Source: a virus. Taken from it: 43,056 bases of DNA. Within the stretch, counting starts at the first letter, position 1. Each line of letters begins with the position of its first letter. A program made the translations under genes and the position numbers. The stretch covers positions 1 through 43,056 of IMG/VR virus record IMGVR_UViG_3300030106_007011; one strand, 5' to 3'. Under the pieces are notes generated by a model. That model ran no database searches and was not told the origin of the DNA. It saw only the letters and a list, made by a program, of their open reading frames with translations. Shown in pieces: positions 14,161-19,233 of the stretch.

Positions 14161-14588
14161 TACCAACTGCACCAATATTCTACGACCTTGCCCTCGCTTA
14201 TGGCTTGTTCGCAAAATTTTAAAAATTTGATGTCTTGCTCTTTGTACTCTTTGACTGATTCCTCTTGGAACTGTTGCCCCCAGAAAAATCCATCTTCAGC
14301 GTGATAGTCAGAAAAACCTTTTTCTATCTGTTGTCCTAACTCTTTAACGACATCTTCGGTCAAATAACAGGGTGCTTCTTGGTCAGCATTAAAACCTAAA
14401 TGTGCTAACATACCCTCTACTTTTATTGCAGGGTTTTGTTCTGCCCATTTTCTAGCCATGAACTCTTGAAGCCTTGCGTGTTTTCGCCAAACGAAAACCT
14501 TCTCCCTATCTCCATAATCATCTTCATTAAAGTACTTTTCCCAATCTACTTTTTTACCACGAAGATGTGCGTGTTGGTCTAATCCCAT
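14160..14588 (-). CDS. Conserved phage protein (MGLDQ family), unknown function
   Basis: From ATG 14588, which has a strong GGAGAAG Shine-Dalgarno, the product is 142 residues beginning MGLDQHAHLRGKK. Typical blocks follow: VFVWRKHARLQEFMARKW, a PCYLTEDVVKEL segment, FFWGQQFQEESVKEYKEQD and the C-terminal SEGKVVEYWCSW. Proteins with this MGLDQ.., WRKH.RLQ.. and terminal Trp-rich pattern occur in many T4-like and cyanophage genomes, sometimes mislabelled 'phosphoglycerate kinase'; the true function is unknown. The frame continues to a GTG at 14675, but that segment folds as a structured leader, so I exclude it. Confidence 0.7.
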   Translation of the reverse strand: MGLDQHAHLRGKKVDWEKYFNEDDYGDREKVFVWRKHARLQEFMARKWAEQNPAIKVEGMLAHLGFNADQEAPCYLTEDVVKELGQQIEKGFSDYHAEDGFFWGQQFQEESVKEYKEQDIKFLKFCEQAISEGKVVEYWCSW

Positions 14589-14611: not shown

Positions 14612-14675
14612 GTGACGTGGGTATGCTCTTGTCTAGCAAGGCGAACACTTTATGTGTTCTGTCAATCCACGTCAC
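14612..14675 (-). promoter_or_regulatory. Structured 5' leader, apparent three-way junction
   Basis: Read on the minus strand: closing stem GTGACGTGG (14675-14667) with CCACGTCAC (14620-14612), 9 perfect pairs; second stem GAACAC/GTGTTC around a 5-base loop (14659-14643); third stem CTTG/CAAG around a 5-base loop (14640-14628). The Shine-Dalgarno and ATG 14588 follow after a short A-rich linker. The predicted transcription start is at the first base of the closing stem. The fold could be a riboswitch, an autoregulatory protein site or a stability element; it matches no class I know. Confidence 0.5.
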
Positions 14676-14681
14676 CCTATT

Positions 14682-15408: not shown

Positions 15409-15594
15409 CCAGCTGTCCTGCAGGAGCCCCCAGCTGTCTGCTGCCCGGGAGAGCCCCAGTGTCCTGTAAACGAGAACGAGGTTCGCCTTTCTAACGAGAA
15501 CGAGAAACGAGCACCAGCTGCAGGATCTCGTCTCCAGGCCCCGTGCAACAACAAAGAGGTAAAATAACACGAGGCCAGGAAACGAGAACGAAGT

Positions 15595-17728: not shown

Positions 17729-17764
17729 CTACCCTAAAAACTTCTGATTGCGTTCCCGCAAGAC

Positions 17765-17871
17765 TGGTGTATCCATAGATACACCATAGATACACCATAG
17801 ATACAGCATTAAATCGTCTTAAATTGTTGTTATTATTACATTATTTCTCTCTAGATACACCAGATACACCA
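17765..17871. repeat. GATACACCA iteron-like repeats
   Basis: Direct copies of GATACACCA at 17778, 17789, 17854 and 17863, a one-mismatch copy at 17800 (GATACAGCA), and an inverted copy TGGTGTATC at 17765-17773 that forms a 9-bp hairpin with the first direct copy (loop CATA). The first three are spaced 11 bases apart, about one helical turn, typical of sites bound side by side. They lie in a gene-free, A+T-rich region. A further copy is at 13115 upstream of terL. Candidate origin, packaging or regulator site. Confidence 0.55.
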
Positions 17872-19030: not shown

Positions 19031-19137
19031 AAAATATCCTTTTATTAAAGTTAATTTGTTTGTCGTTGTTAGTGATTAATAAGGTGTTTTGAAAGCCTCA
19101 CCTTTTCATTTAGGCTTAGGAATACATATGTAATCTT

Positions 19138-19164
19138 ATTATAAAATTTGTGACTTGTTTGCAA
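19138..19164 (-). promoter_or_regulatory. Promoter with AAGTCACA in spacer
   Basis: Minus strand TTGCAA (19164-19159), then ACAAGTCACAAATTT (15 bases), TATAAT (19143-19138), with TAAGAT just beyond as an alternative -10. It shares TTGCAA..AAGTCACA with the plus-strand promoter at 20402-20431. The -35 touches the terminator of the preceding operon. Confidence 0.5.
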
Positions 19165-19194
19165 CAAAAAAAGGGCCAGTCTCCCGGCCCTTTT
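19164..19194 (-). terminator. Intrinsic terminator
   Basis: AAAAGGGCC/GGCCCTTTT stem (9 bp) with an 8-base loop; on the minus strand the 3' side continues as a 7-T run. It follows the stop of the ribbon-helix-helix-like gene (19234) by about 40 bases. It would also work weakly in the plus direction. Confidence 0.85.
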
Positions 19195-19233
19195 CCAACC
19201 CCAAGTTTAAGGTTAACCATCCAACTTGCAGGT

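Follow-up and report, generated by a model that had tools for sequence, protein, structure and literature searches.

A predicted three-way-junction RNA at the start of a viral transcript and its place in a repertoire of exchangeable leader modules of SAR11-type phages

The viral sequence analysed here (IMG/VR record IMGVR_UViG_3300030106_007011, positions 1 to 43,056; hereafter the window, meaning this whole stretch) carries on its minus strand a gene designated MGLDQ, which is preceded by a leader RNA of 64 nucleotides (nt), 14675-14612, folding as a three-way junction with a closing stem of 9 base pairs (bp) and two hairpins. Other copies of this RNA, which we call class A, lie in L082, from another phage, and in L176. 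The leader and its surroundings are laid out as follows.

14709-14682, minus strand: sigma70-like promoter, with -35 TTGCAT (14709-14704), a 16-nt spacer and -10 TAAGAT (14687-14682); read from the sequence and conserved in relatives
14675-14667, minus strand: 5' strand of P1, the 9-bp closing stem, GTGACGTGG; L176 differs here by a compensatory pair and by a change to G-U
14666-14660, minus strand: junction J1/2, AUUGACA, unpaired; unchanged in 3/3 copies
14659-14643, minus strand: hairpin P2, GAACAC-auaaa-GUGUUC; compensatory change of A-U to G-C in L176
14642-14625, minus strand: hairpin P3, GCCUUG-cuaga-CAAG-a-GC, with one bulged A; compensatory change of G-C to A-U in L176
14624-14621, minus strand: junction J3/1, AUAC, unpaired and invariant in the alignment of copies
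14620-14612, minus strand: 3' strand of P1, CCACGUCAC; from fold computation and the comparison with L176
14600-14594, minus strand: Shine-Dalgarno (SD) sequence AAAGGAG; lies beyond the fold and is unpaired with a mean probability of 0.75
14588-14160, minus strand: MGLDQ gene, 142 amino acids, start codon ATG at 14588; hundreds of relatives in IMG/VR

In the closing stem, GTGACGTGG (14675-14667) pairs on the minus strand with CCACGTCAC (14620-14612) without a mismatch. The minimum free energy of the leader is -28.8 kcal/mol (z = -5.56), a value equalled by 0/200 shuffled sequences and the lowest z among the 2150 scanning windows of the 43-kb record, the one concerned having been scanned on the plus strand. 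The same 64 nt recur unchanged in L082, where the MGLDQ protein is identical in 79 of 157 alignment columns (~50%), and a covariance model built from these two copies retrieved the third, L176:548-619, with 81.8 bits and an E value of ~1e-22. Window and L176 differ at 8 positions, 7 of which fall in stems and comprise three compensatory pairs, one per helix, plus one change of A-U to G-U; 21/22 unpaired positions are the same and 1/22 is changed. Across the copies the proposed helices are paired in 100% of cells, against 24-57% in slid controls, and one double change in each of the 3 helices between window/L082 and L176 was reached by 16/500 shuffles, the comparison having a depth of three sequences with a core distinct in only two. 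Chance does not account for the structure, since every helix carries a compensatory change in the third homologue, and on these comparative grounds the class A leader is a real conserved structured RNA.

The initial annotation, drawn from the letters of the window, had described a perfect closing stem with two inner hairpins followed by the SD, and had proposed that compensatory changes be sought in the three stems of homologous leaders; the z score, the RNAalifold structure of the three copies, which is the one it had proposed, and the covariation all agree with it. It also placed the transcription start at the first stem base, which is where the promoter TTGCAT-16-TAAGAT puts the predicted +1 (~14675-14676, the first base of P1, the stem beginning 7 nt downstream of the promoter). 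This promoter is conserved as TTG(C/A)..TGGGATNTGATAAGA before MGLDQ in most relatives. The best explanation is a self-contained three-way-junction domain that would form the 5' end of the MGLDQ messenger RNA (mRNA) from this predicted +1. Nor could the RNA be assigned to a class with a name, as had been stated: Rfam 15 gave 0 matches at the curated cut-off in the window and the loci of 46 relatives, relaxed thresholds gave nothing credible, and the best sub-threshold score in the leader was 19.8 bits for a cut-off of 70. When viral contigs were scanned for class A with exact patterns, only L082 and chance coding matches came back; the patterns required bases altered in L176, so that further copies may exist. 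Under strict filters, no class A copy was found in 297 SAR11-order genomes.

The protein encoded downstream has no match in Pfam, PHROGs or NCBIfam and no significant match in PDB, where the best fold match, YfbM, was rejected (E value 0.37, template modelling (TM) score 0.32); MGLDQ was not found in the isolate phages of the collection. An in-frame GTG at 14675 was considered as the start and rejected in favour of the ATG, as the initial annotation had preferred, for the distance from GTG to ATG is 88 nt in L082, out of frame, versus 87 nt in the window, while the leader is identical. Of the further suggestion, that the leader looks like a small riboswitch or an autoregulatory site, the second half fared less well. 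An autoregulatory operator of MGLDQ was rejected and control by its protein is unlikely, because class A is identical at ~50% protein identity (L082), recurs as a class at 56-57% protein identity, does not follow the protein tree and stands before another gene in L176, while the nearest relatives have another class or no module. For the riboswitch half, which stays a candidate, neither a terminator nor a conserved SD-sequestering switch was found.

How the leader varies became apparent among 193 relatives with a recognisable promoter: it is short in 145 (47 nt or less, the slot being empty) and long in 45 (48-230 nt, nearly all structured). The slot between the conserved promoter and the SD is occupied by ~20 unrelated RNA classes, single or in tandem (e.g., F then G in L131), and when occupied leaders are aligned with empty ones, the module appears as a cleanly delimited insertion, with the -10/+1 region on one side and the SD-side linker on the other. 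Presence of a module differs even between phages with 98-99% identical MGLDQ (L265/L266, L260/L261, L163/L159 and L281/L296). Along the MGLDQ tree there are 28 changes of class among occupied leaders versus 35 in shuffles, a distribution which is not random, yet far from following the tree; class A lies at three separate places, with neighbours that are empty or of another class. By the wording of the initial annotation, homologous leaders without the stems would count against it, and most homologous leaders do lack the RNA, but because it is an optional, swappable insert, not because it is unreal. Two side observations concern promoters. Upstream of the MGLDQ promoter, most relatives (e.g., L011 and L101) have a conserved palindrome, TTTAGAATNATTCTAAA, likely a repressor operator, which is not seen there in the window; and a second copy of the promoter, TGGGATTTAATAAGA, lies at 13793-13779 (minus strand) before a gene of 108 amino acids, whose leaders in relatives are nearly always short.

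Modules are not confined to MGLDQ. In L176, class A precedes a different gene, encoding a zinc-ribbon-like protein of 91 amino acids, and class K of L110 is found again in L048, ahead of a different gene, the family of which has its own promoter type (TTGACA..TCCCAT..) and leaders often of 80-300 nt that are full of similar modules. Among 129 long leaders, collected with promoters defined by regular expression, so that some small open reading frames (ORFs) may remain, and with approximate boundaries of tandem modules, 85 have a module of at least 35 nt in common with some other leader. Sharing extends to the leader of another gene family in 40/129, involving 9 families; the count was 59 at first and became 40 once segments holding small ORFs were removed. 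Covariation recurs in two further classes, mostly in the closing stems: class E, compared over 5 sequences, has 4 pairs with double changes, and class Z, over 7 sequences, has 6. Neither the leader nor any of 11 pooled modules was found in the isolate phages of the collection. Sequence comparison thus establishes class A as one member of a portable repertoire of RNA leader modules in SAR11-type phages, which are inserted, lost, stacked and exchanged before different genes.

Some observations on these loci stand apart. The gene after the class A copy (L176:620-640) has no recognisable SD, and its module-free relatives L158, L168 and L173 look nearly leaderless. Leaders of the TTGACA..TCCCAT type (L048:2200-2430, L052, L059, L235, L267, L141 and others) contain one to three structured modules each, which group roughly into ~37 clusters of at least two members. 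Module Z (L061:2159, L104:1782, L045:2320 and L294:1677) is an RNA of 62 nt in which a stem that covaries strongly closes a conserved core of ~45 nt; it resembles an aptamer or catalytic core. The palindrome TGATCA, possibly a kissing-loop dimer site, recurs in the otherwise unrelated modules U, V and X (L100:481, L052:2219 and L075:2306). Strong folding in the scan of the window also appears at 15497-15576, 17737-17816 and 19137-19216 (minus strand), where further modules are possible.

In functional terms, this repertoire poses a question: What can so many unrelated folds have in common? One shared property is their position. The average probability that a nucleotide begins a helix is ~0.25 at position -3, 0.78 at position 0 and 0.93 at position +5 with the first promoter type (25 distinct leaders), and climbs from 0.49 at -1 to 0.92 at +1 with the second (78 distinct leaders), while shuffles are flat and have no rise at the predicted +1. 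Given this jump in both promoter types, unrelated folds start at the same nucleotide. As to the host, the terminase of the window is closest to that of pelagiphage HTVC023P, most of its gene being 71% identical at the DNA level, relatives of MGLDQ occur also on contigs of two SAR11 assemblies, and SAR11-family genomes encode RNase J (22/26), RppH (22/26) and RNase E (24/26 above cut-off). It is established that a 5'-terminal stem-loop stabilises mRNA and that RppH of Bacillus subtilis requires at least 2 unpaired 5' nucleotides (PMC3997798). The explanation that we favour, at a little short of an even chance, is that the main job of the leader would be to protect the 5' end of its own mRNA. 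With a folded, cap-like domain starting at +1, RppH, RNase E and RNase J would have hardly any unpaired 5' end to use, and the phage mRNA would last longer; the conserved unpaired bases may build a tertiary fold, perhaps blocking the 5'-3' exonuclease RNase J, and the SD would stay free while the 5' domain is folded.

Several points weigh against 5'-end protection. In all analyses of position the +1 was predicted from promoter sequence; most relatives have no module at all; the SD is slightly less accessible in occupied leaders (0.64 vs 0.76, p = 1.5e-4); and 19 pairs of modules among the 129 long leaders head one leader but stand further down in another, a position that calls for no 5'-end function. 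A plain stabiliser, moreover, would not require loops that are invariant or a turnover that is very rapid. Protection does not fully explain these two features or the tandem stacking, which possibly leave room for an RNA effector or sensor.

An effector would be an accessory small RNA, a decoy or inhibitor of host nucleases or defence proteins, carried on the 5' end of a strong transcript and perhaps cut off, the downstream gene being incidental. Dozens of unrelated folds with conserved cores, stacked in tandem in interchangeable order before unrelated genes, are what this would predict, as are phages that differ in having a module although their proteins are 98-99% identical, a turnover as fast as is typical of accessory anti-host genes; the core of class Z, more than 40 nt, is kept while its closing stem covaries. 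We consider it somewhat unlikely, since it has no known target, no terminator or processing site is seen, and a role in cis better suits modules that begin strictly at +1 and keep a constant linker on the SD side.

Less probable still, and frankly doubtful, is that each class works as a cis-regulatory sensor, riboswitch or protein-binding operator, tuning translation of the operon. Classes A, E and Z do have aptamer-like conserved unpaired residues inside covarying stems, and classes B and C resemble H-type pseudoknots by eye. However, ~20 classes serve one gene while a single class stands ahead of different genes, no riboswitch of Rfam matches, and class A has neither a terminator nor a conserved SD-sequestering alternative, the unpaired probability of the SD being 0.75 in the window versus 0.49 in L082 (L176 having no recognisable SD). 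A put-like element, binding RNA polymerase to suppress pausing or termination, is very unlikely: put in phage HK022 does have this layout, a structured RNA immediately after the promoter (PMC9378689), but put is one conserved RNA, the modules comprise dozens of unrelated folds, and terminator-like sites in the operon are only weak. Least credible of all is a DNA-level mobile element or operator whose inverted repeat folds incidentally, for although the modules have terminal inverted repeats and come and go at one site, within each class their ends covary so as to keep base pairing (with G-U pairs on the sense strand among them), no end sequence is common to classes, and modules begin at +1 instead of random sites.

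SAR11 phages are among the most abundant ocean viruses, and to our knowledge their transcripts are almost unstudied. They may, though we consider this rather less likely than not, carry a cassette-like pool of small structured RNAs that sit at +1, are exchanged like accessory genes and act alone, either in trans or by shielding transcripts in general; if true, this would be the RNA counterpart of phage accessory-gene hot spots. A diverse and modular set of structured RNAs where transcripts begin would add a further, new level to phage gene control or to the take-over of the host; Rfam does not contain them, nor do isolate phages as far as modules were tested. The leader modules also offer compact RNA folds by the dozen, each built around a conserved core.

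Known systems resemble these modules in part. The put RNA of HK022 is likewise a phage fold acting in cis just after the promoter, but constitutes a single conserved family, unlike the many mutually unrelated folds described here. RNA anti-CRISPRs and phage decoy RNAs are similarly accessory and variable, whereas RNA anti-CRISPRs copy CRISPR repeats, and Rfam scans detected no such copy among the modules. Small riboswitch aptamers (SAM-II/V, preQ1 and purine) share with the leader a fold of ~60 nt, conserved junction bases and variable stems; the leader differs in having no Rfam match, no visible expression platform and a class that is not bound to one gene. Viral exoribonuclease-resistant RNAs are also compact, multi-helix and sometimes tandem, and the SAR11 host side has the 5'-3' exonuclease RNase J; these RNAs, however, belong to eukaryotic viruses and require a ring pseudoknot, while the leader modules are described here at the level of secondary structure. 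As in the 5' stabiliser stem-loops of Escherichia coli ompA and papA, the structure here would, from the predicted +1, occupy the very 5' end, with the SD left free, but those stabilisers are one hairpin with little sequence constraint, whereas the modules of SAR11-type phages are complex folds with invariant unpaired bases that are exchanged as cassettes.
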